This document shows, in pieces, positions 9,612-35,300 of a stretch of DNA of 64,000 nucleotides (position 1 is the stretch's first letter; every line of letters begins with the position of its first letter). The notes beneath the pieces are model-generated. The model ran no database searches and was not told the origin of the DNA. It worked only from the letters and a program-made list of their open reading frames with translations. Position numbers and translations under genes: made by a program. The stretch is from Dioscorea cayenensis subsp. rotundata (Eukaryota > Streptophyta > Magnoliopsida > Dioscoreales > Dioscoreaceae). The DNA lies in NCBI RefSeq assembly GCF_009730915.1, contig NC_052489.1, positions 124,001-188,000 of the forward strand. Direction: 5' to 3'.

Positions 9612-12600
9612 TCAACTCCGAGTTCCAAGCCTCCACTTGATAGAGCCAAATGCTGCCTTGCCATCCATTCCTGCTCTCCGGACATGATCAATCTCCACCT
9701 TGGATACAGGGGCAATCTTAGCCCATTCCCTCCCACTGTCATCTTCAAGCAGGTCAATCAACAATGGACAGCCATTGATGCACAATTCTTGGAGCTCCGC
9801 AGGGAGGCCCTCTTCCGGAAGGCAGCTCACTAATGGACAGTTGCTGATGACCAAGCTCTCGAGGCCTGAAACATGCAGCAACGGAGGCAACCGCCAGAGC
9901 TTAACGCAGTTCCAGAAAACCAAGAACTTGAGCATGTTTGGCAGCTGGGCTTCCTCAGGAAAATGGCTGAGCTGAGAGCAATCGGTCAAGTTCAAGTGCG
10001 TTAGTGATGTGAGACACGATAAACATTTGAGCATTGGGTTGATCAGCTCTGTACTGCATGAGCTGATTCTCAGGTCTTCAAGTGATTCTGGAAGCAGATC
10101 TGTGGCCTCCGGAAGACCACACTTGAGCTTTGGGCAGTTGTAGATGTGAAGGTTTGTTAATGAGACAAGCGGTTTGAAGCCATCCATTGGCAGTGACACC
10201 AGCTCTTCACAGTTGGCAATTGTCAATTCCCTGAGAGAGTTCAGCTCCTGGCTCAGCAATCCATTACTCAGTGATTTCAAACTGGAGCATTCATGTACAT
10301 ATAAGGATGAGAGTGCAGTACTAGTAGTATTTGCTGATGTCTTCTTGAGTTGAGGAAGGCAGTTCACTCCCACTTCTGATATTGTCAACCTGTTTACCGT
10401 CGGAGGTACTGGTGGTAGCCTTCTCAGCTTGGGACATTCACTAACCTGGATTTCGGTGATGCAAGGCAACACTATTTGGCCTTCTGCCACCGACCATTCC
10501 TCCAAGTAAGTCATGTCTTGGAGCACTAGTACATTCAATGATGGAAATCCCATGATTTCACCTTGGCCTAAAATCTCTTGCCCAATGTGTGTGACTGCTT
10601 GCAATCCATCTATGTCCAGGCGTTTGAGGAAGGGGAGCTGCCCAAGAGGTGGGAGGAGCATGCACTTGTTGCAGTTTGACAGCTGGATGGTGTGTAGACT
10701 GGACAGTGACGAACTCCCCAGCCATCCCGGAAAGCGGAATCCTGAGTATCCCTTGATTATAAGCTCTCTCAATTCTACATGCGGATGGAGGCCTCTGAGG
10801 ACATCTTGCTGGATTGACTGGCCGTCCATGAGGCTTTCATTGCACCAAACAAGCTCCAGTGAGGAAAGGGAACTCTTGGCACTCAACATAGCCTCAACAG
10901 CCTCATCACCACTGGTCACATTCTCAAGACCAGAGATGCGAAGATGACCCCGAAGTTCCGCCATGTGCTTTAGCTCTGTTATCCTGAATCCATTGCTCCG
11001 GCGAACCAAGAATTCAGCGAGTTTTTGAAGGTGGGCGAGCTTCCCAATTCTGGCAATATCCAAGATCAGTGAGCTGTTTACTTCAAGATGTCTGAGGTTG
11101 ATTAGGTTAGTCACATCAACTGGTAGATGGCTCAGTTCGGTGCAATATTTCAGCTTGAGCGTCTGCAAACCGCACAGCCTGGTAAGGGATGATGGCAGTG
11201 CTTTAATACCAGTTCGAGATAGGCAGAGATATCGCAGTTGTTGCAGATTTTCAATTGAGGATGGCAGCTTATCGATGTCTCTGCGCTGCAGGTCCAACAC
11301 TCGCAGGAATTTCAGCTTTAAGAATAGATCATTTGGAATTGGCCTAGTCCTGGATTTGTATCCTTCCAGGACCAACAGAGTTCTTAGGCTTTTGAACCCA
11401 TAAAACTGTTCAAAGGAAGTGTCCATTGTGTTACTGCAGGAAAACGAGGAATGGCGGGCTTTCTTCGAGAAGGTAGTGTTTTGCCAACCATCTTCCAATC
11501 TAACACATTCCATTGCAGCGACTGATCGCGCCAGCTCATGGATTGCATCATGCATGAAATAACTGCCATTTTGGGCTTCAAAAAAGGATCTGCTTACTAA
11601 ATCATCTAAATAACCATTTCCTATGTCTTCCATGCTTTTCCTTCCTTGAGGCTGAATGAAACCAAGGGCCATCCACATCTGCACCAAATTATCCTTTTCA
11701 AACACGTAATCTTTGTGAAACACTGCACAAAATGCAAAGCACTGTTTCAGATTTGGGGATAAATGCTTGTAGCTCAGTCTAAGAGCTGGCAATATGTTGT
11801 TGTTCTGGTCTGGCTGCAGCTCCCAAATTTCACTTCTCAAGATGTTTTTCCAATCATTTTCATCTAATTTGGAATACAAGAGACTCCCCAGGGCCTTTGC
11901 TGCAAGGGGAAATCCTTTGAGATTTTTGACAATCTCCTTTCCAATCTCCTCCAGTTTCGGATGCCCGCTTGAGTTACCATCAACAAAAGCACAATTCCTG
12001 AACACAGACCAACAATCATGGTCTGACAATGGTTTCAAATGGTAGGCCGGCAAGCCACCCATAATCCTCCCAACATTTTCATTCTGGGTTGTCACCATGA
12101 TCTTGCTCCCTATGTCTCCAGCGGTCAATGCGGCATAGTACCTCTGCCATCTCTGATGGTCCTCATTCCAAACATCATCCAAAACGAGCAAAAACCGCTT
12201 CCCCTTCAACCTCTTGAAAAGATCTTCTTGCAGCATGTTCATGTTTGTGGTAGTGGTGGTGGTGGTGGTGGTGCTGTGGTTGCTGTTGTTGTGGTTGTAG
12301 TCAACTAGAGTCCCCTCCAGTGTTTCTCTGGTCAGCTTCCTCTCATCAAAGTTCTCAGAGACACACACCCACATTCTCAGCTGGAAGTGTTCCTTGACTC
12401 TGCTGTCATTGTAGACAAGCTGTGTGAGTGTGGTCTTGCCTAGCCCACCCATGCCAACAACAGGGAGGATTACAACTTTACGACGATTGTTGAATCCCAA
12501 TCCTTCACTAGAGGTTAGCAGCAATTTGACTACATTTTCTTTATCTTGTTCTCTTCCGAAAACATGAGAACCATCAACCAGCGAGCTTGTCTGAGGCCTC

Positions 12601-13058
12601 TCTTCAATTTCATTTTCAATTTCAATTTCAATTCTTCTGCCCAACACTTGAAGACCGAGAACATCTCGTTCTCTAAAGATATTTTCTAACCTCTTATTGA
12701 TGCCTTTGATCTTGCGTGCTATTTTAGAAGTAAGCAAAGCTTCGTTGACGCAAAAATTGCAAGTGAGAAGATGTCTTGTTACCTTTGGACGTGGAGTTGC
12801 CGCTGTGTACTCGTCTAGCAGGTCATCGATGTCATAGGCCACATCTTTGAGCTTCATAAGCCAACGCCGCACCTGCTTCTCCTTCACCTGCTTATTCTCT
12901 GCATCCTCAAGCAAGTCTTGTATTGATGACAATGTGTTGCGGAGGCTTCGCAGTTCTTTCTTTGTGTTCCGGAGAGATTTGTATTCATCCAAAGCAGCAA
13001 CAGCCAACTTCTCAAATAGAACCTGCATGAAAGCAGATAGAACTGCTTCTCCTGCCAT
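9612..13058 (-). CDS. CNL-2, coiled-coil NBS-LRR immune receptor
   Basis: 1148 residues in a single exon, starting MAGEAVLSAFMQVLFEK. In this family an Rx-type coiled coil, an ATP-binding NB-ARC switch and LRRs detect pathogen effectors and trigger immunity, usually at membranes or in the cytoplasm. Visible motifs are the P-loop GMGGLGKTT (residues about 202-210), kinase-2 LLVLDDVWNE, GFPLAAKALGSLL (GLPL motif with F), CFAFCAVFHKDY and YFMHDAIHELA (MHD at 502-504), then about 20 LRRs to the C-terminus. Odd point: a Thr/Asn/His-rich run (NSNHSTTTTTTTTTNMN) from a trinucleotide repeat at 12247-12300 sits before kinase-2. The gene is head-to-head with CNL-3 and tail-to-tail with CNL-1. The start is supported by alignment with MAGAAVVSAFLQ in CNL-3 and CNL-4. 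Confidence 0.96.
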   Translation of the reverse strand: MAGEAVLSAFMQVLFEKLAVAALDEYKSLRNTKKELRSLRNTLSSIQDLLEDAENKQVKEKQVRRWLMKLKDVAYDIDDLLDEYTAATPRPKVTRHLLTCNFCVNEALLTSKIARKIKGINKRLENIFRERDVLGLQVLGRRIEIEIENEIEERPQTSSLVDGSHVFGREQDKENVVKLLLTSSEGLGFNNRRKVVILPVVGMGGLGKTTLTQLVYNDSRVKEHFQLRMWVCVSENFDERKLTRETLEGTLVDYNHNNSNHSTTTTTTTTTNMNMLQEDLFKRLKGKRFLLVLDDVWNEDHQRWQRYYAALTAGDIGSKIMVTTQNENVGRIMGGLPAYHLKPLSDHDCWSVFRNCAFVDGNSSGHPKLEEIGKEIVKNLKGFPLAAKALGSLLYSKLDENDWKNILRSEIWELQPDQNNNILPALRLSYKHLSPNLKQCFAFCAVFHKDYVFEKDNLVQMWMALGFIQPQGRKSMEDIGNGYLDDLVSRSFFEAQNGSYFMHDAIHELARSVAAMECVRLEDGWQNTTFSKKARHSSFSCSNTMDTSFEQFYGFKSLRTLLVLEGYKSRTRPIPNDLFLKLKFLRVLDLQRRDIDKLPSSIENLQQLRYLCLSRTGIKALPSSLTRLCGLQTLKLKYCTELSHLPVDVTNLINLRHLEVNSSLILDIARIGKLAHLQKLAEFLVRRSNGFRITELKHMAELRGHLRISGLENVTSGDEAVEAMLSAKSSLSSLELVWCNESLMDGQSIQQDVLRGLHPHVELRELIIKGYSGFRFPGWLGSSSLSSLHTIQLSNCNKCMLLPPLGQLPFLKRLDIDGLQAVTHIGQEILGQGEIMGFPSLNVLVLQDMTYLEEWSVAEGQIVLPCITEIQVSECPKLRRLPPVPPTVNRLTISEVGVNCLPQLKKTSANTTSTALSSLYVHECSSLKSLSNGLLSQELNSLRELTIANCEELVSLPMDGFKPLVSLTNLHIYNCPKLKCGLPEATDLLPESLEDLRISSCSTELINPMLKCLSCLTSLTHLNLTDCSQLSHFPEEAQLPNMLKFLVFWNCVKLWRLPPLLHVSGLESLVISNCPLVSCLPEEGLPAELQELCINGCPLLIDLLEDDSGREWAKIAPVSKVEIDHVRRAGMDGKAAFGSIKWRLGTRS

Positions 13059-13742
13059 TGTGCTCTTCGTGTTGACAGAGTTGACTTGGCCGGAGGAGGT
13101 TAGAGATGGGTGATGGTAATTCTTTTAAGTCTGGATATTGATAAGCTTGAGTTGTTGTTGACTGACCCTTAATCGAGCACTTGACTTCCATTGCCATGTA
13201 ATTTCGAGAGTTTTGTTTCCATTACCATATGATTTCGACGTAACTAGTTTATAATGTTTTGTTATTTAAATATTAGAGTATGACCTTTGTTCTGTTAGAA
13301 AAGGACGAAAAGGGCCCTGCTGCTGACACGCTGAGGCTGAGCTGCCGCGGAGCACATGTGCTCTTAGTCTTATAGGCTAATAAGTAAAAAAACCCTGCAT
13401 CATAATGTAATTTTGCTAATGTTTAATGCAAGGAAGTCTTTGTTTCATACTCCACCAACCATAATAGATCCACCTTTGTGACTTGTCACTCAAAAAAATT
13501 TGGCCACCTGTAAACTGGTGTGTATGTGTGTATATATATATGCATACATATACATATACATATGTATAAAAATAACCTGAGACATGTAGACACCATAGGC
13601 AACCAAAGTTGACTAAGAAACTATCCAGGCAGGACTCGATCAACAAGTCAAGCTTATCAAATTTCACACAGAAATAGGCACCATCTCTCTTTCTCTCTCC
13701 CTGTGTGTGTGTGTCTGCCCCGATCGAACAGCACAAATCACA
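13059..13742. promoter_or_regulatory. Divergent promoter shared by CNL-2 and CNL-3
   Basis: 684 bp between two start codons pointing away from each other. It contains TTGACT W-box cores (WRKY-binding type) at 13081-13086, 13158-13163 and 13609-13614, the last 134 bp before the CNL-3 ATG. Also visible are a TG/TA-rich microsatellite (about 13519-13565) and a pyrimidine-rich leader (about 13683-13710). The region is clearly homologous to 25696-26272, including the GAGCACATGTGCTC-like block and the AAAGTTGACTAAG block. That a WRKY factor acts here is inference from the motif. Confidence 0.75.
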
Positions 13743-16431
13743 ATGGCAGGAGCAGCAGTTGTATCTGCTTTCCTGCAGATTCTGTTTGAGAAATTGGCTG
13801 TTGCTGCCTTGGACGAATACCAATCCCTCCGGAATGCTAAGAAAGAGTTTCAGTACCTGTCCAATACGCTGTCATCCATACAAGACCTGCTTGAAGATGC
13901 AGAGGAAAAACAGTTGAAGGATAAACCAGTCAGAGGTTGGCTCGTGAAGCTCAAGGATGTCGCCGTTGACATTGATGACTTGCTGGACAAAAACAAAACT
14001 GCAGTTCAACGTTCAAAATTGAAGAACCAAAAGGCAAGCAGGTATCTCTCTTGCTATTTCTTCAACAAAGTTTTTCTTGATTATAAATTGGCACACAAAA
14101 TCAAAGGCATCAATGAGAGATTAGACAAGATATCTAGAGAACGAAATGTTCTTGGCCTGCAAGTGCTGAACAACCACGCGAGCAGGCTTGAAATCGAAGA
14201 GAAACCTCAGACCAGCTCACTGGTTGATGATTCTCGTGTTTTTGGTAGAGAACAAGATAAAGAGAATATAGTGAAATTGTTGTTAGCCACGGGTGACGGA
14301 TTCAACAATCATTTTAATGTTCCAATCCTCCCTGTTGTTGGTATGGGGGGGCTTGGGAAGACCACTCTTACCCAGCTTGTCTACAATGATAATAGAGTCA
14401 AGGAACACTTCCAGCTAAGGATGTGGTTGTGTGTCTCTGAGAATTTTGATGAAAGGAAGCTGACCAGAGAGACATTAGAGTGCACTCTGAGCGACTACTC
14501 TAACACCAACACAAACACCACAAACCTGAACTTGTTACAAGAGGATCTGTTTCAAAAGCTGAAAGGGAAGAAGTTTCTACTTGTTTTGGATGATGTTTGG
14601 AATGAGAACCGGGAGAAATGGAGCAGGTACTATGCCGCTTTAGCTGCAGGAGAAAGAGGAAGCAAAATTCTGATGACAACTCGAAATGAAAACGTCGGAC
14701 TGATCATGGGTGCTTTGAAGCCGTACTACTTGAATCAATTATCAGACGAGGATTGCTGGTTATTGTTCAGAAGTTGTGCATTTGTGAATGGCAGCTCAAG
14801 TGGGCATCCGAAGTTGGAGATAATTGGCAAGATGATTGTCAAGAAGCTCAAGGGATTGCCCTTAGCAGCAAAGACACTGGGGAGCCTCTTATATTCCAAA
14901 CTCGATGAAGATGAATGGGAAAACATCTTGAGAAGTGAAATTTGGGAGCTGCCAACTGACCAGAACAACATAATGCCAGCTCTTAGATTGAGTTACAAAC
15001 ATTTGCCACCGAATCTCAAGCAGTGTTTCGCATTTTGTTCTGTCTTTCATAAAGATTATGTGTTTGGAAGAGATGATCTGGTGCACATGTGGATGGCTCT
15101 CGGTTTCATTCAGCATCAAGGAAGGAAAAGGATGGAGGACGTTGGTTACAGTTATTTTGACGAGCTAGTAAGCAGGTCCTTCTTTCAAGCTCAAAAAGGC
15201 AATTATGTAATGCATGATGCCATCCATGATCTAGCACAATCTATCTCCATTGGTGAATGTGTTAGATTGGAGGATAAGTTGCAGAATGATATGACTGATA
15301 AAGCTCTTCATTCATCATTCTCATGCAGTCACACAATGCATACTTCATTTGTGCCATTCTACAGGTTCAATCGACTAAGAACACTACTGCTCTTGCAAGG
15401 TTACAAATCTAGTACTGGCCTGATCCCAGATGATCTATTCATGAGACTAAAATTTCTGCGAGTTCTGGACCTAAACCGCCGAGATATTGATGAGTTGCCA
15501 AACTCGATTGGCAATTTAGATCAGCTAAGGTATCTAGGTCTCTCTGGCACTGGAATCAGAGCGTTGCCTTCTTCTATCAGCAAGTTATACAATTTACAAA
15601 CACTGAGACTGAAACATTGCAATGAACTGAGCCGTCTGCCAAGAGGAATCACTGGTCTGGTCAATTTAAGGCATCTGGAAGCAAACAGACTACTCATATC
15701 AGAGATAGCAGGAATAGGGAAACTAACCTGCTTGCAGAAGCTTGGGGAATTCAACGTTCGCCAGAGGATGGGATTCCACATAACTGAGCTGAAGGACATG
15801 ACAGAGCTTCGGGGACATCTTTGCATCTCTGATCTTGAGAATGTGATCAGTGGAGAAGAGGCGAGAGAAGCTATGCTGAACGCCAAAGCATCACTCACTT
15901 CACTAGAGCTTATATGGTCTGAGGAAATACATGTTGCTAGTTTAGAAGAATGTATCCAAGTAGAGGTGCTCAGATATCTGCAACCACAGAATGAGATCAG
16001 AGAGCTCTCAATCAAGGGCTATTCAGGATTCCTCTTTCCAGATTGGCTAGGCAGCTCATCACTCTCCAGTCTACACACCATTCACTTATCCAACTGCAAG
16101 AATAGCAAGTTCCTCCCACCTCTGGGGCAGCTCCCATTCCTCAGATATCTAGACATTGGTGGAATGGATAGTGTCACACACATTGGGCAAGAGTTCTTGG
16201 GTTTTGAAGGATTTCCATCATTGATCGAACTAGTGCTTGAAGACATGCCTTGTTTGGAGGAATGGGTGATTGCACAAGGTGAAGGCGTGTTCCCTTGCAT
16301 CACGGAAATTCAGATAAGAGAATGTCCGGAGTTGAGAGAGCTGCCACAACTTCCTCCAACACTGATGAAGCTAACTGTATTGGAAGCAGGAGTGAGCTGC
16401 CTTCCGCAACTCAAGACAGCAATCTCATCAT

Positions 16432-16462
<31 letters not shown>

Positions 16463-17138
16463 AGCAGCACTCTCATATATGTACATACATGATTGTCCGA
16501 ATCTGACATCGCTGAGAAATGGATTGCTGAGCCAGGAGCTGAAGTCTCTAAGGGAATTGACTATTGCCAACTGTGAAGAGCTTGTATCACTGCCAATGGA
16601 TTTGTTCAAACCACTTGTTTCATTAAAAAACCTCCACATATACAATTGTCCAAAGGTCAGCTGCAGTTTTCAGGAGGCCACAGGCCTGCTCCCAGCATCA
16701 CTAGAAGACCTCAGGATCAGCTCATGTAGTGTGGAGCTCATCAACCCAATGCTCAAATGTTTAGGGAGCCTGACAACATTAAGACATTTGAAGATTTGTG
16801 ACTACTCTGAGCTCAACTATTTTCCAAAGGAGACCAGGCTGCCAGACATGCTCAAGCTTTTGACGTTGTGCAACTGTGCTAATCTCTTGTGCTTGCCTCC
16901 ACTGCTACATGTCTCAGGCCTCGAGACTTTGGTTATTAGTGACTGTCCATTGGCGATGTTACCTGTAGATGGACTGCCTGCAGAGCTGCAGGAGCTGCAC
17001 ATTGACGGCTGCCCAGTCTTAAAGAACCTGTTGGAACAGGATGATGGAAGAGAATGGGCTAAGATCGTTCATGTACCCAAGGTAGTGATTGATAGTGAAA
17101 GGAGGACGATAACTGGGAACACTTCCAAACATATCTGA
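13743..17138 (+). CDS. CNL-3, coiled-coil NBS-LRR immune receptor
   Basis: 1131 residues, one exon, starting MAGAAVVSAFLQILFEK. The upstream in-frame GTG at 13707 is not used as the start because all paralogues begin at MAG. The order is an Rx-type coiled coil (residues about 1-150), P-loop GMGGLGKTT (200-208), kinase-2 LLVLDDVWNE (about 279-288), GLPLAAKTLGSLL, CFAFCSVFHKDYVF, YVMHDAIHDLA (MHD 490-492), then LRRs to about residue 1100. An in-frame trinucleotide repeat at 16424-16469 encodes a Ser run then an Ala run between two LRRs; CNL-4 has a much shorter version. CNL-4 is its closest relative in the window. A Ty1-copia element sits 21 bp after the stop codon, so the 3' UTR and polyadenylation are probably supplied by the element. 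Confidence 0.96.
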
Positions 17139-17159
17139 CATCCCAGCAACTGGCAGAGC

Positions 17160-17576
17160 TGTTGGTGATGAAGAGTTTCAGATTGAGGGTTCTTTACTCT
17201 GCTATGGAATCAGAAGGATTGAAGAAATTGTCAGGCTGAGGTTACTCTGAAGCTACTCTGATTTTCGGAGAGGATTTTGAAGACTTGAAGCTGAAACGGT
17301 TAACTTGGTTGATGCTGAGTCAGCCTCCAGATCAGCAGAGTTTTTTCTGTTTCATTGGTCGACGTCATCATAAGTTTGTTATAACTGTAGCCACGTTAGC
17401 TAAATTACTTATGCTTGTACTTATAAATATCATTGTATTCACTTCAGAGTTCAGACAGCGATTAAACAATGAGAATTTTGAATCCATTCTCCTTCCTTTC
17501 ACTCTGATTTTTCATTTGATTTGCTCTTCCTTCATCTAAACAATGGATTCTGCATTGTTTTTCTCAAAAATCATCA
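17160..17576 (+). repeat. 5' LTR of the copia element
   Basis: 417 bp. Its right half (from about 17360) matches 19652-19846: both contain ATAAGTTTGTTATAACT, AAATATCATTGTATTCAC and TGAGAATTTTGAAT. Confidence 0.88.
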
Positions 17577-17705
17577 TGTTATCAGAGCTACAGGGGTGAA
17601 TTTTTTGGTTTTTGTACTGAATTTTCTTCAATAGTTGTTCTTTTTCTGCTGCTGGTTTCTTGGTTTCCTGGTTTCTTGGTGTTCTTGTTGTTCAATCTCG
17701 CTTCA

Positions 17706-19651
17706 ATGGCTGATGTGAATGATCCTTCTAGCCCTTTGTTCTTAAATCCTTCTGATTATCCTGGAAACATTCTTGTTTCTCAAAGCTTTGATGGGACTGG
17801 TTTTGGTCCATGGAAAAGAGCAAGGACTATAGCTTTATCTTCAAAGAATAAACTAGTGTTTGTAGATGGATCTTGCCTGAAGCCTGATGATAGTTCACCA
17901 TATTTACAGCAATGGATTCGGTGTAATAATATGGTGATTTCCTGGATTTTGAATTATTTAACAAAAGAGAAATCAGAGAGTGTTCTCTTTCAAGTTTGTC
18001 TTATCAGATTTGGATAGAACTTGAAGACAGATATGGACAATCTAATGGGGCTCAACTCAATGAAATCCAAAAGGAATTATCTCAGACTTCCCAGGCTGCA
18101 AGCAGTATTGCAGCAAACTATACAAAGATCAAAAGATTATGGGATAGAGTACAATTTTTATGGGTCTTTCCTCCTTGTTCTTTTGGTTCAGTTGCTATTT
18201 TACTGAAATTTGAAGAAGAACAGAAGTTAATATAATTCTTGATGGCTTTAAATGAGCAATATACCACTGTAAGAGGCAATATATTGATGATGAAACCATT
18301 ACCATCTGTCACACAGGCTTATTCTTTTTTTAATTCAAGAGGATCAACAAAGAGAGATATATTCAAATTCTAGGAAGAAAAAGTTGATATGTGATTATTG
18401 TAAGAAACCAGGACATGCAAAGGAAAGATGTGTTACAAGTTACATGGGCATCCAATGTGGTGTTGAAGGTCCCAAGGAAAGGAAGTTTGCATCTCAGGTT
18501 CATGCTGAGGTCTCTAAAGACACTGCAGGAGTACTCACATACCTGAACTCACAGAGGCTCAGTATGCTAAATTGCTGCAATTCTTGAATCAAACAACATG
18601 AGGGGAGTCATCATCACAGCTCACTGGTTCTTTTTTTTTTTTTTTGATAAAGAACTTCTCAACTGAGAAGCTGATTTATTAAGAAATAAAGGACAGAGCT
18701 GAACAAAAAAACTACAAAAAACACCAATATAAACAACTAGAAACAAACAGAATTAAAAAAACAAAACCAAAATCAAAGAAGGATTTCATAATCCAATAGG
18801 GAAGATCTTTTCCAAACAAGAAGAGGTTAAGAGATTGATGCACGAGACCATAAGAAGCAAACAAAGTTGCTGGAGCCATCCAGGAGTGAGGAATTTCATG
18901 AATGTGAGCATTGCCAGTCATAGCCAGAAGAAACCTGATATTGGAAATTTGAGAGTGTAGACGCCAAGCTATAACATGATCAGGTCTCTTCAACATGGCT
19001 AAATCAGTATGATAGGCGCTAAAAATATGCTTGACAGGAAGTTGAAAGTCCAGCGCAAATTGGAGAGCAACATCCAAAGCGAGCAAGGCTTCTGAAGAGT
19101 TATCATCTGCAGGCTGAGAGAGGCAACCTGCAAATGAAACAAGGAGATTAGCACTGGATAAGAAAAAACCAATTGCTCTTACCCGTCTGCTCTCATTGAG
19201 AATCGCATGGGTGAATAGAAAATGATCATCAGCTCCAGAGAAGTTGTATAGAATGAGTTTTTTGCCAAGGAGGCATCTGTTGCTGTTAGAATGTTCTCTA
19301 GCATGAGCAATAGATCGGTTAACAATGGCAGAGAAATTTGGAGGGGAATTGTTGAAAATAGCATCACAGCGGCTCTTCCAAATAAACCAAGCACCCGCCA
19401 CAATAACAGCAAGAGTAAACTGTGAATAACTGGTTCTGAAAATTTTGCTTGTATAATTACTAATACTTGTGAGCATTTGCCCTCTTCACATAACCTTTGG
19501 ACCCTAGACACGGGTGCTAGTGACCATATATGCCATGATCCTAGCATTTTCATGAACCTATCAATCACCAATAACAAAAACCTTCAAAATTAATAACCTT
19601 ACCAACTGGATACAAGGTCACAGTCACTCATTGTGGAAATGTTCAAGTAGC
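17706..19651 (+). pseudogene. Copia gag-protease remnant
   Basis: Begins MADVNDPSSPLFLNPSDYPG, the N-terminus of a copia gag. Frameshifts near 18010 and 18230 break it. A zinc knuckle (CDYCKKPGHAKERC, about 18387-18430) follows. After the nested LINE the frame resumes and shows the aspartic-protease motif LDTGASDHICHD (about 19503-19538), and stops at VTHCGNVQVA. The protein cannot be functional. Confidence 0.85.
18632..19428 (-). mobile_element. 5'-truncated LINE nested in the copia element
   Basis: Antisense LINE 3' end. The poly(A) appears as a T run at 18631-18645. An open stretch (18712-19428 on the minus strand) encodes the C-terminal RNase H-like tail (GAWFIWKSRCDAIFNN, RAIGFFLSSANL, LNLFLFGKDLPYWIMKSF). 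It is clearly the same lineage as the full-length LINE at 1275-7354. It is flanked by ACTGGTTCT (18623-18631 and 19429-19437), and removing it rejoins the copia protein. Its 3' terminus can fold into a perfect hairpin (CTTCTCA...TGAGAAG, about 18655-18670). Confidence 0.9.
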
Positions 19652-19846
19652 ATCCACGTCAGCATAAGTTTGTTATAACTATGGCCATGTCAGCTACATT
19701 GCCTATGCTTGTACTAATAAATATCATTGTATTCACCACTTCAGACAGCGATTGATGAATGAGAATTTTGAATTCATTCTCCGTCTTTTCACGCTGATTT
19801 TTCATTTAAACAATGGATTCTTCATCGTTTTTCTCAAAGATCAACA
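19652..19846 (+). repeat. Truncated 3' LTR of the copia element
   Basis: About 195 bp matching the right half of the 5' LTR. The left half was lost with the internal deletion. Confidence 0.85.
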
Positions 19847-19851
19847 AGAGC

Positions 19852-24630: not shown

Positions 24631-25695
24631 CAAAACAAACAGAAACTGCTTCCCCTTCAACCTCTTGAAGATATCTTCTTGCAGCTTGTTCATGTTTGTG
24701 GTGGTGGTGTGGTTATTGTTGTTGTGGTTGTAGTCAGCTGGATGTATTCCTTGACTCTTCTGTCATTGTAGACGAGCTGTGTGAGTGTGGTACCCATGCC
24801 AACAACAGGGTGGATTACAAATTTACGAGGATTGCTGAATTCTAATGCTTATATTCTCTTTATCTTGCTCTCTTCCAAAAACATGAGAACCAGCAACCAG
24901 TGAGCTGGTTTGAGGCCTCTCTTCAATTTCATTTTTAATTTCAAGTTCAACCCGGTTGTGCCTGCTTCTGCCCAACACTTGAAGACCAAGAACACCTTGT
25001 TCTTTAAGAGATACTTTCTAACCTCTTATCGATGATGCCTTTGATCTTTCGTGGAAGCAAGCAAACCTTTGTTGACGCAATAATATCAAATGAGAAGATG
25101 CCTTGTTACCTTTGGACGTGGAGCTGCCGCTGTGTACCCGTCTAGCAGGCCATCGTTGTCATAGGCCACATCTTTGAGCTTCATGAGCCAACGCGGCACC
25201 GGCTTAAGGGGTTGTTTGGATTGGTTTTTAAAAAAAGTGTTTTTTTTTAATTTTGCAGAAGCACTTTTGGAAAAAGTACTTTAAGAATAAGTTAAGTGCT
25301 TATGCATATTTTTTCGTTTAGATGTATTAGTTTCAGAAACACTTCTGTAGTTGTGAAAATGTTTGGATGTTTATTTAAAAATTATTTTTACAGCAAAAAA
25401 ATTACTAAAATACTTTTTTACTGGATTGACTGAGGGTATTTTAATAAATGCACTTAACCAAATAGCTTATCAAAAACAGCTTATTTCCATAAGCTAGTCT
25501 TTGGCAGCTTATAAAATAAGCTGTATTTGAGTTTATTTCACAGCATGAGCTTATTCAAAAAAGCCCATCCAAACATAATATAAAATCTCATAAGCACTTA
25601 ACTTATAAAATAAGTGTAGCTGATCCAAACAACATCTAATTATCCTCTGCATCCTCAAGCAAGTCTTGTATGGAACCATTATGCTCTTCTTGACA
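24631..25695 (-). pseudogene. Truncated minus-strand CNL relic
   Basis: Homologous to the 5' half of CNL-2 (12181-13058), from kinase-2 back to the N-terminus: the kinase-2 side at 24640-24720, the P-loop region damaged at about 24785, and the coiled coil at about 25080-25205. A MITE then interrupts it at 25207-25639, after which the first codons are mostly deleted. Multiple frameshifts and deletions are present. It lacks all sequence downstream of kinase-2, so it has no ARC or LRR part. It sits head-to-head with CNL-4 exactly as CNL-2 does with CNL-3. Confidence 0.9.
25207..25639. mobile_element. MITE inside the CNL relic
   Basis: About 430 bp with terminal inverted repeats GGTTGTTTGGAT (left) and ATCCAAACAAC (right), AT-rich with no ORF. 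A TTA/TAA-type target site is plausible. It splits CNL sequence that is continuous in CNL-2. The end sequences and internal style resemble the element at 42491-43064. Confidence 0.75.
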
Positions 25696-26036
25696 GAGTT
25701 GAATTGGTCGGGCGAGCTTCGAAATACTGGTTATTCTTGAAAGTCTGGCAAATGATAACCTTGGGCTGTTGACTGACCCCTCCAGCACTTGACTTCCATT
25801 GCCACTTGGCTCCTACAGTTTTGTTTATATCAATATGAGCTTTGTTCTGTTGGAACGGACGAAATGGACACTGCTGCTGACACGCTGAGCTGCTGCTGAG
25901 CACATGTGCTCTTTTAGGCTAAAAAGTTTCAAACCATCGCATCATTATGTAATTCTGCTGATGTTGAACGTAAGGAAGTCCCTGTAGACACTATAGACAG
26001 CCAATAAATTGTGGCCAGCGGTAGGTGGTGTATGTA

Positions 26037-26079
<43 letters not shown>

Positions 26080-26272
26080 ACTAACATTCATACATTCATA
26101 GAAATGTTATGTGGACACTATGGGCAGCCAAAGTTGACTAAGTAACCAACCATCCAGGACTCGATCAAAGCCAAGCTTCTCAGTTTTCAAAGGAAAATAG
26201 CCATCATCAGCCTCAGGAAAATAAGCATCATCTCTCTCTCTCTCGGCCCCGGTGAGCACAGCACAAATCACA
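25696..26272. promoter_or_regulatory. Duplicated divergent promoter, now driving CNL-4
   Basis: Homologous to 13059-13742. It keeps the W-box TTGACT at 26134-26139 (139 bp before the CNL-4 ATG) and another at 25769-25774. The third one nearest the minus-strand gene has become TTGAAT (near 25690). The microsatellite at the matching position has become a pure (GT)n run (26041-26076). The leader before the ATG is nearly identical to that of CNL-3 (GCACAAATCACAATGGCAGG). Confidence 0.75.
26041..26076 (+). repeat. (GT)n microsatellite
   Basis: A run of GT dinucleotides in the CNL-4 promoter, about 200 bp before the start codon. Confidence 0.9.
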
Positions 26273-29200
26273 ATGGCAGGAGCAGCAGTTGTATCTTCGT
26301 TCCTGCAGATTCTGTTTGAGAAATTGGCTGTTGCTGCCTTGGACGAATACCGATCCCTCCGGAATGTTAAGAAAGAGTTTCAATGCCTGTTCAGCACGCT
26401 GTCATCCATACAAGACCTACTTGAAGATGCAGAGGAAAAGCAGTTGAAGGATAAACCAGTCAGACGTTGGCTCGTGAAGCTCAAGGATGTAGCTGTTGAC
26501 ATTGATGACTTACTGGACAAACACACAGCTGCAGTTCAACGTTCAAAATTGATGGTCCAAAAGACAAAGGTACGCAGGCATCTCTCTTACCATTTCTTCA
26601 ACAGAGTTTTTCTTGATTATAAATTGGCACACAATATCAAAGACATCAATGAGAGATTAGACAAGATATCTAGAGAACGAGATGTCCTTGGCCTGCAAGT
26701 GCTGAACAACGGCACAAGCAGGCTTGAAATTGAAGAGAAACCTCAGACAAGCTCACTGGTTGATGGTTCTCGTGTTTTTGGAAGAGAACAAGATAAAGAG
26801 AATATAGTGAAATTGTTGTTAGCCACCGGTGACGGATTCAGCAATCCTTTTAATGTTGCAATCCTCCCTATTGTTGGTATGGGGGGACTTGGGAAGACCA
26901 CTCTCACACAGCTTGTCTACAATGACCATAGAGTCAAGGAACACTTCCAGCTGAGGATGTGGTTGTGCGTCTCTGAGAATTTTGATGAAAGGAAGCTGAC
27001 CAGAGAGACATTAGAGTACACTCAGAGTGACTACACAAACACCAACACCAACACAACAAACCTGAACTTGTTGCAAGAGGATCTGTTTCATAAGCTGAAA
27101 GGGAAGAGGTTTCTACTTGTTTTGGACGACGTTTGGAATGAGAACCGGGAGAAATGGAGCAGGTACTATGTCGCTTTAGCTGCAGGAGACAGAGGGAGCA
27201 AAATTCTGGTGACGACTCGTAATGAAAATGTCGGACTGATCATGGGTGGTTTAAGGCCCTACTATTTGAAGCAATTATCAGACGAAAACTGCTGGTCATT
27301 GTTCAGGAGTTGTGCATTCGTGAATGGCAACTCGAGTGGGCATCCAAAGTTGGAGGAAATTGGGAAGGAGATAGTCAAGAAGCTCAAGGGATTACCCCTG
27401 GCAGCAAAGACACTGGGAAGCCTCTTATATTCCAAACTTGATGAAGATGACTGGAAGAACATCTTGAGAAGTGAAATTTGGGAACTGCCAACAGACCAGA
27501 ACAACATAATGCCAGCTCTTAGATTGAGTTACAAACATTTGCCACCCCATGTCAAGCAATGTTTTGCATTCTGTGCTGTGTTTCATAAAGATTATGTGTT
27601 TGGAAGGGATGATCTGGTGCAGATGTGGATGGCTCTCGGTTTCGTTCAGCCTCAAGGAAGGAAAAGGATGGAGGACGTTGGTTACAGTTATTTTGATGAG
27701 CTAGTAAGCAGGTCCTTCTTTCATGCTCACAAAGGCAACTATGTAATGCATGATGCCATCCATGATCTAGCACAATCCATCTCCATTGATGAATGTGTTA
27801 GATTGGGGGATAAGTTGCAGAGCAATACGACTGATAAAGCTCTTCATTCATCCTTCTCGTGCAGTCACTCAATGCATACTTCATTTGAGCCATTCTACAG
27901 GTTCAAAAGACTAAGAACACTCCTGCTCTTGCAAGGATACAAATCTAGGACTGGCCTGATTCCAGATGATCTATTCTCAAGGCTGAAATTTCTGCGAGTT
28001 TTGGTCCTAAACCGCCGAGATATTGATAAGGTGCCAAACTCCATTGACAATTTACATCAGTTAAGGTATTTAGGCCTCTCTGGTACGGGAATCAAAATGT
28101 TGCCATCTTCTATCAGCAGGTTGTACAATTTACAGACACTGAGACTGAAACATTGCAATGAACTGAGCTACCTGCCAAGAGGAATCACTGGCCTGATCAA
28201 TTTAAGGCATATGGAAGCAAACAGTTTACTCATATCAGAGATAGCAGGAATAGGGAAACTAACCTGCTTGCAGAATCTTGGGGAATTCATAGTTCGCCAG
28301 AGGATGGGATTCCACATAACTGAGCTGAAGGACATGACACAGCTTCGGGGGCATCTTTGCATCTCTGATCTTCAGAATGTGATCAGTGGAGAAGAGGCGC
28401 GCAAAGCCAAGTTGCACACCAAAGAATTACTAACGTCACTAGAGCTTGTTTGGTCCGCTGGAAACCGTGTTGCTAGTTCAGAAGAATGTATCCCAGAAGA
28501 GGTGCTCAGATGTCTGGAACCACAGAGAGAGATCAGAGAACTCTCAGTCAAGGGCTATTCAGGATTTCACTTTCCAGATTGGCTAGGCAGTTCATCACTC
28601 TCCAGTCTACACACCATCCACCTATCCAATTGCAAGAACTGCAAGTTCCTCCCACCTCTCGGACAGCTTCCATTCCTCAGATATCTTGATATTGGTGGAA
28701 TGGATAGTGTCACACACATTGGGAAAGAGTTCTTGGGTGTCAAAGGATTTCCATCATTGATCGAATTAGTGATTGAAGACATGCCTTGTTTGGAGGAATG
28801 GGCGATTGCACAAGGTGGAGTGTTCCCTTGCATCACTGAAATCCAGGTGAGAGACTGTCCGGAGCTGAGAGAGCTGCCACAACTTCCTCCAACACTGACA
28901 AAGCTAACAGTATCAGAAGCAGGAGTGAGCTGCCTTCCACAACTCAAGTCACCAACCTCATCATCATTAGCAACAGCAGCACTCTCATCCATGTTCATAC
29001 ATGATTGTCCCAATCTGACATCACTAAGAAATGGATTGCTGAGCCAGGAGCTGAGTTCTCTAACGGAATTGACTATTGCCAACTGTGAAGAGCTGGTATC
29101 ACTGCCGATGTACTTGTTCAAACCACTTGTTTCATTAAAAAACCTCCACATATACAATTGTCCAAAGCTCACCTGCAGTTATCAGGAGGCCACAGGCCTG

Positions 29201-29614
29201 CTTCCAGCATCACTGGAAGACCTCAGAATTAGCTCATGTAGTGTGGAGCTCATCAACCCAATGCTCAAATGTTTAGGAAGCCTGACAACATTAAGGCATT
29301 TGAAGATTTCTGACTGCTCTGAGCTCAACTATTTTCCAGAGGAAACCAGGTTGCCTGACATGCTCAAGCTCTTGGTGTTAAGCAACTGTGCTAATCTCTT
29401 GTGCTTGCCACCATTGCTGCATGTCTCAGCCCTTGAGACCTTGGTTATTTGGCATTGCCCGTTGGTGATGTTACCTGTAGATGGACTGCCTGCAGAACTG
29501 CAGGAGCTGCATATTAACGGCTGCCCAGTTTTGAAGAACCTGTTGGAACAGGATGATGGCAGGGAATGGGCTAAGATCGCTCGAGCACCCAAGACAAAGA
29601 TCGATTGTAGATGA
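26273..29614 (+). CDS. CNL-4, coiled-coil NBS-LRR immune receptor
   Basis: 1113 residues in one exon, starting MAGAAVVSSFLQILFEK. An in-frame GTG seven codons upstream is rejected as a start. Motifs are an EDAEEKQ coiled coil, P-loop GMGGLGKTT (202-210), kinase-2 LLVLDDVWNE, GLPLAAKTLGSLL, CFAFCAVFHKDYVF, YVMHDAIHDLA (MHD 492-494), then LRRs ending near LLEQDDGREWAKIA. It is highly similar to CNL-3 along its length, with most differences in LRR surface positions and in the short Ser/Ala insert (CNL-3 has a longer one). It is the downstream partner of the tandem duplication whose minus-strand partner is dead. Nothing in the sequence argues against function. Confidence 0.96.
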   Translation: MAGAAVVSSFLQILFEKLAVAALDEYRSLRNVKKEFQCLFSTLSSIQDLLEDAEEKQLKDKPVRRWLVKLKDVAVDIDDLLDKHTAAVQRSKLMVQKTKVRRHLSYHFFNRVFLDYKLAHNIKDINERLDKISRERDVLGLQVLNNGTSRLEIEEKPQTSSLVDGSRVFGREQDKENIVKLLLATGDGFSNPFNVAILPIVGMGGLGKTTLTQLVYNDHRVKEHFQLRMWLCVSENFDERKLTRETLEYTQSDYTNTNTNTTNLNLLQEDLFHKLKGKRFLLVLDDVWNENREKWSRYYVALAAGDRGSKILVTTRNENVGLIMGGLRPYYLKQLSDENCWSLFRSCAFVNGNSSGHPKLEEIGKEIVKKLKGLPLAAKTLGSLLYSKLDEDDWKNILRSEIWELPTDQNNIMPALRLSYKHLPPHVKQCFAFCAVFHKDYVFGRDDLVQMWMALGFVQPQGRKRMEDVGYSYFDELVSRSFFHAHKGNYVMHDAIHDLAQSISIDECVRLGDKLQSNTTDKALHSSFSCSHSMHTSFEPFYRFKRLRTLLLLQGYKSRTGLIPDDLFSRLKFLRVLVLNRRDIDKVPNSIDNLHQLRYLGLSGTGIKMLPSSISRLYNLQTLRLKHCNELSYLPRGITGLINLRHMEANSLLISEIAGIGKLTCLQNLGEFIVRQRMGFHITELKDMTQLRGHLCISDLQNVISGEEARKAKLHTKELLTSLELVWSAGNRVASSEECIPEEVLRCLEPQREIRELSVKGYSGFHFPDWLGSSSLSSLHTIHLSNCKNCKFLPPLGQLPFLRYLDIGGMDSVTHIGKEFLGVKGFPSLIELVIEDMPCLEEWAIAQGGVFPCITEIQVRDCPELRELPQLPPTLTKLTVSEAGVSCLPQLKSPTSSSLATAALSSMFIHDCPNLTSLRNGLLSQELSSLTELTIANCEELVSLPMYLFKPLVSLKNLHIYNCPKLTCSYQEATGLLPASLEDLRISSCSVELINPMLKCLGSLTTLRHLKISDCSELNYFPEETRLPDMLKLLVLSNCANLLCLPPLLHVSALETLVIWHCPLVMLPVDGLPAELQELHINGCPVLKNLLEQDDGREWAKIARAPKTKIDCR

Positions 29615-29876
29615 TGTGCCGTATATCAGAATCACTCTTTTTTAGTCAGAACTACATACTATTTGTCCTATTTAATTTTAAGCTTGAGCTGATGATTTTC
29701 TTTTTTACTTTCCTTTTTCCTGAATATCAGCTAATAATGATTGTATCAGCCAGGTTGACAACAATTATCTAATGGTTTATCCTTGCTTTATCATTCTGAT
29801 AAATTTGGAAAATAATTATTTCTTGTAGTTTGTAACTCACTTTTTATTAATATATGATTTTGATTTATCAATTTTT

Positions 29877-30129
29877 TTTTTTTTTTGAGTAAAGTGGATA
29901 AACCACAAATTTATTGAAAAGGAGCAAACTGAAAGCAACAAAGTACAAAAGAAAGTACAACAAGCATAGGAGCTAAGCAGAAGTCTGTTATCCTCACCAG
30001 AGATGAGAGTAATAGAAAACAAGGAAAGCAAAAAGAAAGATAAAAGAGGAGCGATCTGAAGCCGGCGAAGTCAACCATATGGAGGCACAGGCCAGCTCAG
30101 AGGAGGAGGAGACGGACTACTCCTGAATC
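29877..30129 (-). mobile_element. LINE 3' fragment, about 250 bp
   Basis: T run, GTGGATAAACCAC (29894-29906), then LINE 3' UTR. Flanked by 16-bp duplications TGATTTATCAATTTTT (29861-29876 and 30130-30145). It lies about 260 bp after the CNL-4 stop. Confidence 0.88.
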
Positions 30130-30145
30130 TGATTTATCAATTTTT

Positions 30146-30454
30146 ATTTAAAAATTTAAAAAATAATTACTTCTCTTGTTATTAGATTTTAATAGTAAAA
30201 AATTGATTTTCAGTATCCTGTTTTGACGAATAAAATTATCGAAATATAGGTTAGAACTTATTGTAACATGTGTGAGTTGTAAAGAACATGGGTGAGAAAA
30301 GATTTTCCATAATTTTAAAAATAAGAAAAAAAATTTGTTATTTAAATTTAAATAGGTTACATATTAAAATATTAAAATGTAGAATTTTTGGGCATATCTT
30401 AAAAATTTATGGTCAAATGATATTGCTTCTTTGCAATCAATATCATACATAATT
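30146..30454. other. AT-rich spacer
   Basis: No coding or repeat structure recognised beyond AT richness. Confidence 0.5.
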
Positions 30455-31765
30455 TTTTTTTATAAAAAATAAATAAACCACATTCATTAAAAAAACATAA
30501 GATTCAATTCAACTATGGTATGCAATGTTGGAACTTGTACCCTAGGCAGTCGGGTCGTGTGTCCTTCTTTTGGAAAGGGGTGATGAGCTGTCTGCCGGCT
30601 CTTAGAGGTTGTGTTTTGCATGGAGTTAATTCTGGAACGGAGACCCTGTTTTGGAAAGATCGGTGGGTTAATGGCAAGGCACCTATGTACATCTAGCCGG
30701 AGGAATTCAGTAGGACACGGGCGCCCAATGGTACTATAAGTGAGCTCTTGAGCTTCTTTGATACTGCCCCCTTCTCGGCTGATCTTGATATTCAGGCAAT
30801 TAGCACACGTATTAGGGGGTCTGTTGGTTGGGTGGGGGACAGAAAATGGTGGAGACTCACAGGAAATGGAACATTTACTGTGAAATCCTTTTATTATTTC
30901 CTGATTGATGGGGGGGTTCGGTGTCCGGTTACGAGATTCTTCTGGCGTAATCTCTGTCCCAAAAAGATTACTGTCTTCAACTGGCTAGCGTGGAATGATC
31001 GTATTCTCACCCTTGAGAATTTAGAAAAGCGTAGATGCAACAAACTCCCTACGGCTACTTGTGTTTTATGTCATGCTGGCTTGGAAACGGTTGATCATCT
31101 CTTCCTGCATTGTGATTTTACAAAGCAGGTGTGGAGTCATTATGTGGAGATTTTGCGACTCCCGGAACCTCCCAGTTCTTTGAGTTTGATCTGGGGTTCT
31201 TGGAGATATTCAGTTAGACCTGCATGTAGGGATATGGGGGATCTTGTGGTCAAGGCTGTTGTGTGGAATATTTGGATTGCTAGAAATGATTGCATTTTTA
31301 ATGCTACTTGCTTGTCTGCACATGCTCTTATGATTAAAATTGATCGTATGTTATTGGCGTGGTTCTCTACAGTGGCGGAGGGACCTAGAGCGAAGTTGGT
31401 GGAGTCTTGTGATGCCATCCGGCGCAGTCTAGACTTTGCTGGACCTCGGGCGGAGGTGGATAGAGGGGGTCTTCCCCCTAACGAGGATGGAGGAGATATT
31501 CCTTCTGAGGAGACGCAGATGCAATCCACGGGCTAGCTAGTTGCTCTCTCCAGGCTCGTTGTGGTGGCCTGTTTTTCCGTTGTGTTGTCCTGTTTTTCTC
31601 TTTTGGTTCTGTCCCTTTTGGTTTCTTGTGCCACTTCTTGTGGTTTGTTCAGTTTCGCTTTTGTCCTGCGGTTGTTTGTGTGACGCTATGGGGTGCTGTT
31701 TTTTGTACTTCGTTTATGTTTCTTTCTAATTGAAGTGGTTTATCCACCTTTTCAAAAGACAACCA
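30455..31765 (+). mobile_element. LINE ORF2 C-terminal fragment, plus strand (with a small older LINE relic at its left edge)
   Basis: From about 30521 the sequence encodes the ORF2 C-terminus of the second LINE family: SFFWKGVMSCLPALRG, then (after one stop near 30696) KWWRLTGNGTFTVKSFYYFLIDGG, a zinc-binding segment CVLCHAGLETVDHLFLHC, VVWNIWIARND, and a Gly-rich end at 31536. The 3' UTR ends TGAAGTGGTTTATCCACCTTTTC (hairpin motif at 31735-31747), confirming orientation and family. At 30455-30520 a minus-strand relic (AAATAAACCACATTCATTA) precedes it. The frame from 30748 to 31536 is open but is only a transposon remnant. Confidence 0.85.
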
Positions 31766-32213
31766 TATCACTAATACATAAATTTTAAAATAATAAATTT
31801 AAATTTTGTTTGATATGATAATGATAATGATAATGAATTTCGGATTGTAGGTTGGAATTTACTATCAAAACCGGTATCACCATGTGTGGATTCATATTAT
31901 TGTTCAAGTACCACATGCACAATTCACTTTTATTTTTTACAAATGTCCACACATTCATGAATGATGAATTCATTTTATATATATATATATATATAGATAT
32001 ATATAATATTTAAATAAAGAGAATACATGATTATATATAATATAATATTATTTTAAAAATAATATTTTTTTAAAAAAAATTAAAAAATAGATAAATTATA
32101 AATTCATTGCAAGGAAAAGTAATAAATTTTAAACCAATGATTTATATTTATACAAGCATCTTGTTTTCGGTGAAGTCAAGGGGTTTTTCAATATATGTAG
32201 AAAGAATGAGGGG
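31766..32213. other. AT-rich spacer upstream of NDUFA6
   Basis: Holds a (TA)n run (about 31976-31996) and a degenerate LINE 3' end (about 32060-32120, TAGATAAATTATAAATTCATT). Its right end (from about 32150) is homologous to 24205 onward, the promoter side of the duplicated NDUFA6 fragment. Confidence 0.55.
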
Positions 32214-32270
32214 CTATTTGTAAGCTACCCAACCCCGATTAAGGCCAGCCCAAATCCGATTCCGCTTACA

Positions 32271-32273
<3 letters not shown>

Positions 32274-32304
<31 letters not shown>
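32274..32304 (+). repeat. (GA)n microsatellite in the NDUFA6 leader
   Basis: A GA run about 35 bp before the start codon, a common plant 5' UTR feature. The truncated duplicate has only a short GAGAGAG here. Confidence 0.85.
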
Positions 32305-32307
<3 letters not shown>

Positions 32308-32337
32308 CCGGAGAGAAAGAAGACGAAGAGAAGAGGG

Positions 32338-35300
32338 ATGGCGTTCACTATGAGAAGCGTGAAGGTGCCGCCCAACTCTGCGTCTCTGGCCGAAGCCCGA
32401 AGTCGCGTTATTGATTTCTTTAAGAAGTCATGCCGATCGATCCCTGCCATAATGGAGATCTACAATCTCCACGATGTCGTCACGGTCTCCCAGCTCCGCT
32501 CCACCATCTCCTCCGAAATCCGCAAAAACGCCCACCTTTCTAACCCCAAGGTATCCAATCCGTCAAAATTCCATCTTTTGTTCTATTTCTTCCATTTACT
32601 TGTACGTTCTGGGTCGAGTTCATCTATATCTGTCCAGATTGTGTTGTTTATTTTAGAAATCATGAAACTTTCCGAAGTTTTATAGCTAAATTTGAACCAT
32701 TAAGCTTCTTCGGATGAAATCGCAAACATATTTTGAGTAAAGATGGTGCATTGCCGTCAAGTTATGACAGAGCCTTATGACTAATCCTTTTTAACCAGGA
32801 TAACTGGTCCTTATGATGGAATATATTGATTTTCATTCAGTGGTAGGAATCGGTAGATTTGGGTGATTAGGCTGCCATCAACGGTGGTCCATTTATGGTT
32901 GGAATGTTATATAAGCTGATAATGGAATTAAGAACCATGAAATTAATGTGGTCTTGATCCACATTGTTCACCATCTTGCCCAAAGACAGGAAGATCTCAT
33001 GTGGCTCTCACTTTTGAGTGCTGGTCAAATGTGTTGTATTCTTCGTGCTATTTACATGTCTGCCTGCCAAGTACTGTGATTCACCTGGGTTTACTTCAAG
33101 ACACTTAAGTAGCAATACATATTGATAGCAAATAATTATGATAAAGCCTAAATGCTATATTGCTATCATAGAAAATCTAGTAAGATAGGCTATACCATTG
33201 CTGTTGACTGGTAGTTTGTAGTTGCAATCATGACAGTTGTGGTATTTCTATGAACACCAATAATGAGGATCTTCTCGTTCTTGTATGTTTCATGGTTCAA
33301 AGGCAAATAGAAATCATGCCTTCGGCTGTTTTTAATCAAAACAATTCCTTTTTACATCTGTATCCAAAGTTAGGTCGTTGTCCTTCTCTGAGAATGACCC
33401 TTTAGTTCTAAGTTTCTTAGGAGTTTGATGATTCAATACCCAAGGTATTGTATCACTGTGAAATTTTGACTTAGTGTTCATGTACTTGAAGGCTGAATTC
33501 AGTTCTTAATCTAAGTTCATGACTTGAATTGCCAAGTTCAAGAGAATTTGAGAATGCAATCCAGAATCTTAAATCTTAACTTTTCTCGAATTAGGTTGTT
33601 AAGAGTTTAAATAAACAATGTAAGTCAAGTACTGAATTCCACAAGTTGCTTATTAGTTATTAGAACAAATTAAAAATCCTTATGCAGCATCCTTTACAAT
33701 GGGGTTGCTAACTACTAACATGGTGAAAGGAGTGATAAACTTTGATATAAAATTAGTAAAATTTAAATTTGTGATTTATTAAAATTATAGATTTACTGTA
33801 CTATTTACTTGTCACTGCATCACTTACTAGTTCTGAGTCAGCTACACAAGCCACAAGCTAACATTTTCTACTAGGTGATCAGTTATAAAGTTGTCCTTTC
33901 TGATGCTAAGGTATGGGAATATTCTTTTATAAGTTATCTTGTTCTTGACACTTTGTAGACAAGATTTCAACACTTTTCCTACTGCCAATGCAAACTGGGC
34001 AATGGACCATATAGCGTGTTGATCTGAATTTGTAATTACATAAATGCATAAGAAGAATAACCAATCTTTTCAAAGTCTTCCTATATGTGTAAAGGATGTT
34101 TTCAAAGATATGATTGATTATGTTGTTACAATCATCTAGCCTAAGAACTTAATCCTTTTTTCAGGCATCTTGAAACATGTCTCAATGTCTCATTTACTTT
34201 TGTTTTGACGGATTTGAAGCTTTTATAATTGCATTTCCTGAGAATATATTTTGTTAGGAGTTATATCCATATAATTATGTAATGTCAAAGCTTGTCATTG
34301 ATTTCTTAAAAAAAAAAAAATGATCAATGACATGAATTTTTCATTTCCCCTAACTGCTAATATTTTGTCCTGGATCCTTTTTTTTTTTATTTTTTTATTT
34401 TGCATTCTAGTTTTCCAATAATTTTTATTGATATTTTGCCACAGACTATCTAGATTTTGGTTCAGCTACAATTGATCTGGTGGGTTATTTATATCTCTTG
34501 GCTACTAGTAGTTGTGTTATGTTATGTTATATTTAAATGAATTTGCACAGGGGTATTGAATATATACTTCATTGCCTGCTTTAAAAACCAGAGAGGACTG
34601 AATTTGCATAATTTTTTACTTACAATTCATACCTCTTTAACGTGAACTGCATTTGCATCTAACTTTTGGAAATAAACAAGAATACTTGATGGTGTGTCAT
34701 TGTAGTTTGAACCCTTGTTTGCACATTCTTGCATCCAAATCTCCCAATTCATTTACATCTGGCTTTTGTTATATTTTGGAGAAACTATTAGTGGTGTATG
34801 TGTGTCCTCAGTTGCACATTCTTCTTAGGGATGGAATGCATTCAAATACATTAGCTTTGTGGCATCTGTTTATTCATATCTTGGAACCATGATTGCTGAA
34901 ACTTCGTTTCCATAGAAGTCAATCAGAGTTTTGGGAAGGCTAAATTTGAGTTTTTCTAGACCAATTGTGTAGACTAACTTAAGTAAATTTTTCTTCAACC
35001 TCTGTGCCCCTGTACCCTTTCTCTTCCTGGTCCTCCTTTTCCTTCCATGATTGGGAGTGTGAGTGAGTAATATCTTCTAAAAGATTCTTGATGACTCTCC
35101 ATTCTTCTTTCGTTTTGTTTGATGTCATCATGATCATAGATAATGACTTAAAATAGGATGCCATAATGATCGGTGGTTGGTGGGAGTTTTCAGTTATTAA
35201 TGCACCTCCGCAATAGGTGAGATATTAGTAAGCAGTTACCTTAAAGGCAGTGAGGCTTGAGCAAATGCATTTGTAAATGAAAACTTAAGAATATTTGTTG

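Follow-up and report, generated by a model that had tools for sequence, protein, structure and literature searches.

A 64,000-nt stretch of the Dioscorea cayenensis subsp. rotundata genome (assembly GCF_009730915.1, contig NC_052489.1, positions 124,001 to 188,000), here called the window, carries a disease-resistance cluster of CNL (CC-NB-ARC-LRR) genes next to NDUFA6, which encodes the B14 subunit of mitochondrial complex I. Two broken genes meet there at one seam: an NDUFA6 copy that stops in its first intron, and the N-terminal relic of a minus-strand CNL gene. Judged from the sequence, a single direct tandem duplication, in which NDUFA6 intron 1 was joined to the kinase-2 codons of the CNL gene, probably explains both. 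The copies were compared within the window itself, as it stands in this one assembly. An earlier note on the same DNA had proposed one duplication behind the two broken genes, and the flush ends of the copies and the homology between them agree with that proposal, although the block starts at 12180 and not at 12181.

Self-BLAST of the window returned three collinear plus-strand matches between two blocks, A on the left and B on the right (Table 1), which are adjacent direct repeats whose ends meet flush at a single junction. With the named insertions subtracted, A measures 8,553 bp and B 6,202 bp, the latter figure resting on two insert borders that are approximate. The order of genes described earlier, with CNL-2(-), CNL-3(+) and broken NDUFA6 in the left copy and broken CNL(-), CNL-4(+) and intact NDUFA6 in the right, was confirmed. 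The expectation that transposons alone would break the match was too strict; transposons do interrupt it, but so do deletions in the relic and the unmatched sequence at 17097-17358.

Local alignment resolved the seam to the base. The left end of B matches that of A from its first base (24631 with 12180), while the right end of A matches that of B to its last (24634 with 32726), and the CAAA microhomology suspected earlier proved to be an exact 4-bp overlap, present at both parental sites. The breaks fall, as foreseen, in the kinase-2 region and in the first intron of NDUFA6: the left one in CNL-2 at codon 293, which encodes the first residue of the LDDVW motif, and the right one 176 bp into intron 1. 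A search for homology outside the block ends, covering about 570 bp per side at E values up to 1, found none on the right and, on the left, one chance-level match of 11 bp (E 0.97). Non-allelic homologous recombination (NAHR) requires long homology at the two breakpoints, and none was found; the parental sites share 4 bp, within the 0-10 bp expected, with no extended homology, of microhomology-mediated or non-homologous joining. The two bases 5′ of the overlap read TA at the junction and CG in the NDUFA6 intron, which would allow a filler of at most 2 bp at the seam. When joins were placed at random within about 500 bp of the two parental sites (n=200,000), an overlap of at least 4 bp arose in 1.9%, which makes microhomology-mediated joining likely rather than certain. 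End joining or template switching fits the whole picture: copies in direct orientation with flush ends, and parental breakpoints that share no homology beyond a microhomology of 4 bp. Replication template switching would leave the same 4-bp mark as end joining, and the earlier choice of end-joining, with which the microhomology agrees, was stronger than the data.

Table 1. Coordinates of the duplicated blocks, their genes and inserted elements (positions in the window).
Feature	Position	Strand	Details
Block match 1	12377-12878~24734-25205	plus/plus	self-BLAST
Block match 2	13055-17081~25676-29593	plus/plus	self-BLAST
Block match 3	24268-24634~32353-32726	plus/plus	self-BLAST
Block A, left copy	12180..24634	+	12,455 bp including later insertions; flush homology to 24631-32726
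Block B, right copy	24631..32726	+	8,096 bp including later insertions
Junction CAAA	24631..24634	+	4-bp overlap of both homologies; also at parental 12180-12183 and 32723-32726
CNL-2	9612..13058	-	intact, 1148-aa CC-NB-ARC-LRR
Divergent promoter region CNL-2/CNL-3	13059..13742	+	copy in B at 25680-26272
CNL-3	13743..17138	+	intact frame; listed ORF 13707-17138, first ATG 13743
CNL relic	24631..25679	-	N-terminal part of a CNL-2 copy; deletions and MITE-like insert; start-codon site 25677-25679
CNL-4	26273..29614	+	intact frame; listed ORF 26252-29614, first ATG 26273; sister of CNL-3
NDUFA6 pseudogene	24268..24634	+	exon 1 from codon 6 (24268-24459), followed by the 5′ part of intron 1
Intact NDUFA6 (complex I B14)	32338..35521	+	coding exon 1 32338-32550; intron 1 32551-35335; exon 2 35336-35521
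LTR element	17359..19847	+	A alone; LTRs 17359-17576 and 19653-19847
Hairpin element	22782..24204	.	hairpin 22792-24194; perfect 10-bp target-site duplication AATAAATGTA; A alone

The age of the parts was approached through a tree of five rows (CNL-1, CNL-2, the relic, CNL-3 and CNL-4) over the N-terminal CNL region. The tree was (CNL2,relic),(CNL3,CNL4),CNL1, with a bootstrap of 100 on both internal branches. Counted over the columns that the relic covers, third-position differences come to 19/186 sites between CNL-2 and the relic and 18/180 between CNL-3 and CNL-4. Branch lengths on 529 gap-free columns were 0.044 for CNL-2, 0.062 for the relic, 0.045 for CNL-3 and 0.032 for CNL-4, and the CNL-2 branch minus the mean of CNL-3 and CNL-4 ran from -0.018 to 0.029 over 200 bootstraps, with zero inside. 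The two pairs are of equal age in the columns common to both. Over their full alignment of 1111 codons, CNL-3 and CNL-4 differ with a synonymous divergence (Ks) of 0.222 (standard error, se, 0.019) and a nonsynonymous divergence (Ka) of 0.065, for a Ka/Ks of 0.29.

Homology also extends into the spacers between the CNL genes and NDUFA6, where alignment scores were judged against shuffles and control windows. Beside the CNL genes, the score of A 19848-20230 against B 29609-29875 was reached by 0/300 shuffles and 0/402 control windows. Beside NDUFA6, that of A 24195-24290 was reached by 0/300 shuffles and that of A 24195-24267 by 0/404 control windows. The homology that the earlier note had looked for in the CNL-3/NDUFA6 and CNL-4/NDUFA6 spacers is present, then, at the CNL end and weaker at the NDUFA6 end, and much of the unaligned spacer is insert-like sequence recognised in one copy alone. 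Just past the end of the CNL-3/CNL-4 homology, nothing in B matches 17097-17358 better than chance (56/300 shuffles reach the score); the stretch was either lost from B or gained in A.

In A, this stretch is followed by a long terminal repeat (LTR) element, which we take, by eye, to be copia-like, with a primer-binding-like site after its first LTR. The divergence (K) of its LTR pair is 0.129 (se 0.028, 194 sites), below the values for CNL-3/CNL-4, the promoter and the NDUFA6 intron but above that of the relic, so insertion after the duplication is likely, without being established. The hairpin element of A is long (1.4-kb) and imperfect, has internal subrepeats, and is presumably Mutator-like, going by the length of its target site. 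The spacer of B contains a piece of a long interspersed nuclear element (LINE) with a zf-RVT domain. A common LINE insertion was considered as proof of spacer homology and left unused, the LINE-like pieces at 20232 and 29863 being similarly placed but judged independent by eye; they appear unequal in length, and the B piece is flanked by its own 26-bp repeat (88% identity). Likewise, the 3′ flanks of the other CNL genes were rejected as references: the score of CNL-1 against A was reached by 1/300 shuffles, with an alignment starting inside the coding end, that of CNL-1 against B by 29/300, that of CNL-2 against A by 195/300 and that of CNL-2 against B by 224/300.

Whether the relic was born truncated or cut later bears directly on the number of events. 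CNL-2 and the relic differ at 59 places; 28 of these changes could be placed on the relic and 23 on CNL-2, which leaves 8 unassigned. By codon position (1/2/3), the relic changes divide 7/16/5, against 19/20/29 for the 68 changes pooled from CNL-2, CNL-3 and CNL-4, a modest difference (Fisher p 0.033), where CNL-3 and CNL-4 were counted over the whole region, beyond the relic columns. The absence of third-position enrichment suggests that the relic died early, with no sign of long selection. This modestly favours the earlier view of the relic as born truncated, but the layout fits a later deletion equally well.

Several observations weigh against a single duplication. The larger part of the spacer is unaligned. 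The left flank of the hairpin taken alone (A 22560-22791) gave a score reached by 2/200 shuffles; with the hairpin removed and both target-site copies kept, the joined stretch was reached by 0/200 shuffles, but with one copy kept it was reached by 9/398 control windows, a weak result. The codon-position counts of the relic are themselves uneven (p 0.025), position 2 being overrepresented, and its branch is longer than that of CNL-2 in only 83.5% of bootstraps. Ks between CNL-3 and CNL-4 is also uneven, at 0.114 in the coiled coil (CC) and 0.285 in NB-ARC, and divergence varies along the block, from K 0.102 in the relic and 0.149 in the NDUFA6 fragment to Ks 0.222 in CNL-3/CNL-4 and K 0.235 in the promoter. 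Constraint and alignability are not the same across these regions, and the values would be compatible with one age while giving no proof of it. The earlier expectation that the CNL, promoter and NDUFA6 pairs would show no clearly different divergence is borne out only in the CNL region common to both pairs; in other regions, under different constraint, K ranges from 0.10 to 0.24. Gene conversion of CNL-3 or CNL-4 with CNL-1 or CNL-2 was considered as a cause of the unevenness and set aside. Of the informative sites among the four genes (1,062 codons), 215 group CNL-3 with CNL-4, as against 16 and 22 for the alternatives. By eye, the latter are dispersed over the length of the gene, so the paralogues in the window show no large conversion tract.

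The main alternative is a two-step history. Here, unequal crossing over or a similar process would first have duplicated a larger tract in tandem, giving two complete CNL(-)/CNL(+)/NDUFA6 units, and a later deletion would have removed what lay between NDUFA6 intron 1 in the first unit and kinase 2 in the CNL(-) of the second. The predicted layout and type of microhomology are the same, and CNL genes in direct orientation that could pair do exist, namely CNL-1 and CNL-3 (77% over 1,296 columns). Moreover, such a history expects no outer duplication edge, so the absence of one is uninformative. Two events are required, however, and a relic without third-position enrichment gives no indication of long selection, though this is a weak test. 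We regard this history as unlikely; because complete duplication plus one deletion gives an identical layout, the single event is the simpler reading and not a demonstrated one.

It is also conceivable that the block owes its origin to NAHR or to transposon-mediated duplication, given the several CNL paralogues and the transposon sequence in the cluster. Parental sites that share 4 bp, with no homology found across the edges, argue against the former, and the nearest recognised inserts (the hairpin, ending at 24194, and a sequence resembling a miniature inverted-repeat transposable element (MITE), from ~25208) lie off the seam, as recognised with no transposon-library search; the probability of either origin is close to nil. 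Only slightly less improbable is an assembly artefact, in which unlinked or haplotypic copies were misjoined at 24631. Haplotype duplicates are unlikely to differ by K 0.10-0.24 and to hold different transposons, and for the join to be false, both genes would have had to be cut at sites with only 4 bp in common.

For the single duplication, we infer one event, a repair pathway and an exchange between sister chromatids along the following lines. The ancestral locus would have had the order CNL(-), CNL(+), NDUFA6(+). Duplicated in direct tandem, a segment of some 6-8.5 kb would have brought a broken end in intron 1 of NDUFA6 together with one in the kinase-2 codons of the CNL on the minus strand, with CAAA either used in the join or common to both sites by chance. 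The route may have been microhomology-mediated end joining, with the sister chromatid as partner, or replication template switching. Since the outer sites would stay intact, CNL-2 would remain complete on the left, beside an NDUFA6 fragment lacking the 3′ part; on the right, NDUFA6 would remain complete, beside an N-terminal CNL fragment. The complete CNL(+) within the block would have been doubled into CNL-3 and CNL-4, both of which stayed open, while the two fragments decayed.

The present state of the genes can be described in the same order. Rx_N, NB-ARC, WH_DRP and LRR_R13L1-DRL21 domains score above the Pfam cut-offs in CNL-2, CNL-3 and CNL-4, each of which is one reading frame. The relic is 90.5% identical to 12180-12878 over 559 sites (K 0.102, se 0.014) and bears deletions of 18, 76, 12, 26 and 8 bp; near its 5′ end, ~140 bp were deleted, leaving 39 bp of 180, with 36/39 remnant sites identical. 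Its MITE-like insert occupies ~25208-25640, and the left part of the insert (25212-25392) has a relative at 42498-42682 (71% over 189 columns). The promoter pair is 79.9% identical over 547 aligned sites, with a K standard error of 0.024, and K becomes 0.251 under stiffer gaps. CNL-1(+) lies within 1-9369, with its 5′ end cut by the window edge, and is interrupted by a LINE-type element that has DUF4283/zinc-knuckle and reverse-transcriptase frames within 1392-7265 and is flanked by the 15-bp repeat AAAGGGATAATTTGG at 1260 and 7355. The parts of CNL-1 on both sides are stop-free up to the insert, as far as the gene lies in the window. Farther along are an F-box domain in a 258-aa reading frame (37263-38039) and, at 46456-46796, a 160-bp AT-rich unit present about twice in tandem, with 80% matches.

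The intact NDUFA6 has GT...AG borders at intron 1, and its exon 2 consists of 35336-35518 plus the stop. The exon-1 peptide matched the NDUA6/B14 subunit of plant complex I in the PDB (6x89, 7a23; E 5.7e-26). Exon 2 was found by tblastn (E 1.8e-30) with a query that we take to be a B14 fragment. The pseudogene has an in-frame stop, a 12-bp deletion and a 6-bp insertion, keeps the donor GT at 24460-24461, and is 86.7% identical to 32353-32726 over 360 sites. K is 0.129 (se 0.028) in the exon-1 part and 0.171 (se 0.036) in the intron, with differences at 11/62 exon-1 third positions and 26/174 intron sites. The fragment does stop in intron 1, as the earlier note had it for 24205-24630, but strong homology begins only at 24268 and the end is at 24634. 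The sequence just upstream, 24195-24267, aligns weakly, and because strong homology begins at codon 6 of exon 1, the start codon lies outside it.

With the NDUFA6 exon 1 and its donor GT located ~1.8 kb upstream of CNL-4, and co-directional with it, the NDUFA6 promoter and a spliced leader exon might have driven CNL-4 at its birth. This is very doubtful; the region upstream of the fragment is today weakly alignable and contains the hairpin insertion. If true, NDUFA6-driven expression could have aided the retention of CNL-4 after the loss of its head-to-head partner.

Events of this type are well known, and the locus leaves the principle unchanged: the mechanism is ordinary and the junction unusually well preserved. 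Its value lies in a base-resolved junction for an old duplication (CNL-3/CNL-4 Ks about 0.2) that cut an NLR and a housekeeping gene together. NLR clusters may grow by the joining of sites with almost zero homology, and fragments of neighbouring genes can mark such an event.

Comparable duplications have been described in other plants. In the Co-2 NLR cluster of common bean, one junction of a segmental duplication has a microhomology of three identical nucleotides, with identity falling off abruptly, and its authors ascribed it to likely non-homologous end joining (NHEJ) (PMC6102362). The yam locus resembles it as an NLR-cluster duplication with a microhomology junction. The bean duplications are subtelomeric and segmental, and one was compared between genotypes (PMC6102362), whereas the yam locus is a more diverged tandem copy, contained in one window, whose breakpoints cut into two genes. 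In the RGA08 NLR cluster of wild banana, copies of sequence beside a non-NLR gene have been described, and unequal recombination between similar stretches was inferred there (PMC3017797), whereas the parental sites in yam share 4 bp. Finally, for gene duplications among copy-number variants (CNVs) in Oryza, NHEJ was assigned from micro-homology or no homology at the breakpoints, with 14 cases of NHEJ, 12 of transposable elements and 1 of NAHR (PMC4812662). Those counts concern non-co-linear CNV genes, whereas the yam locus is a tandem block.

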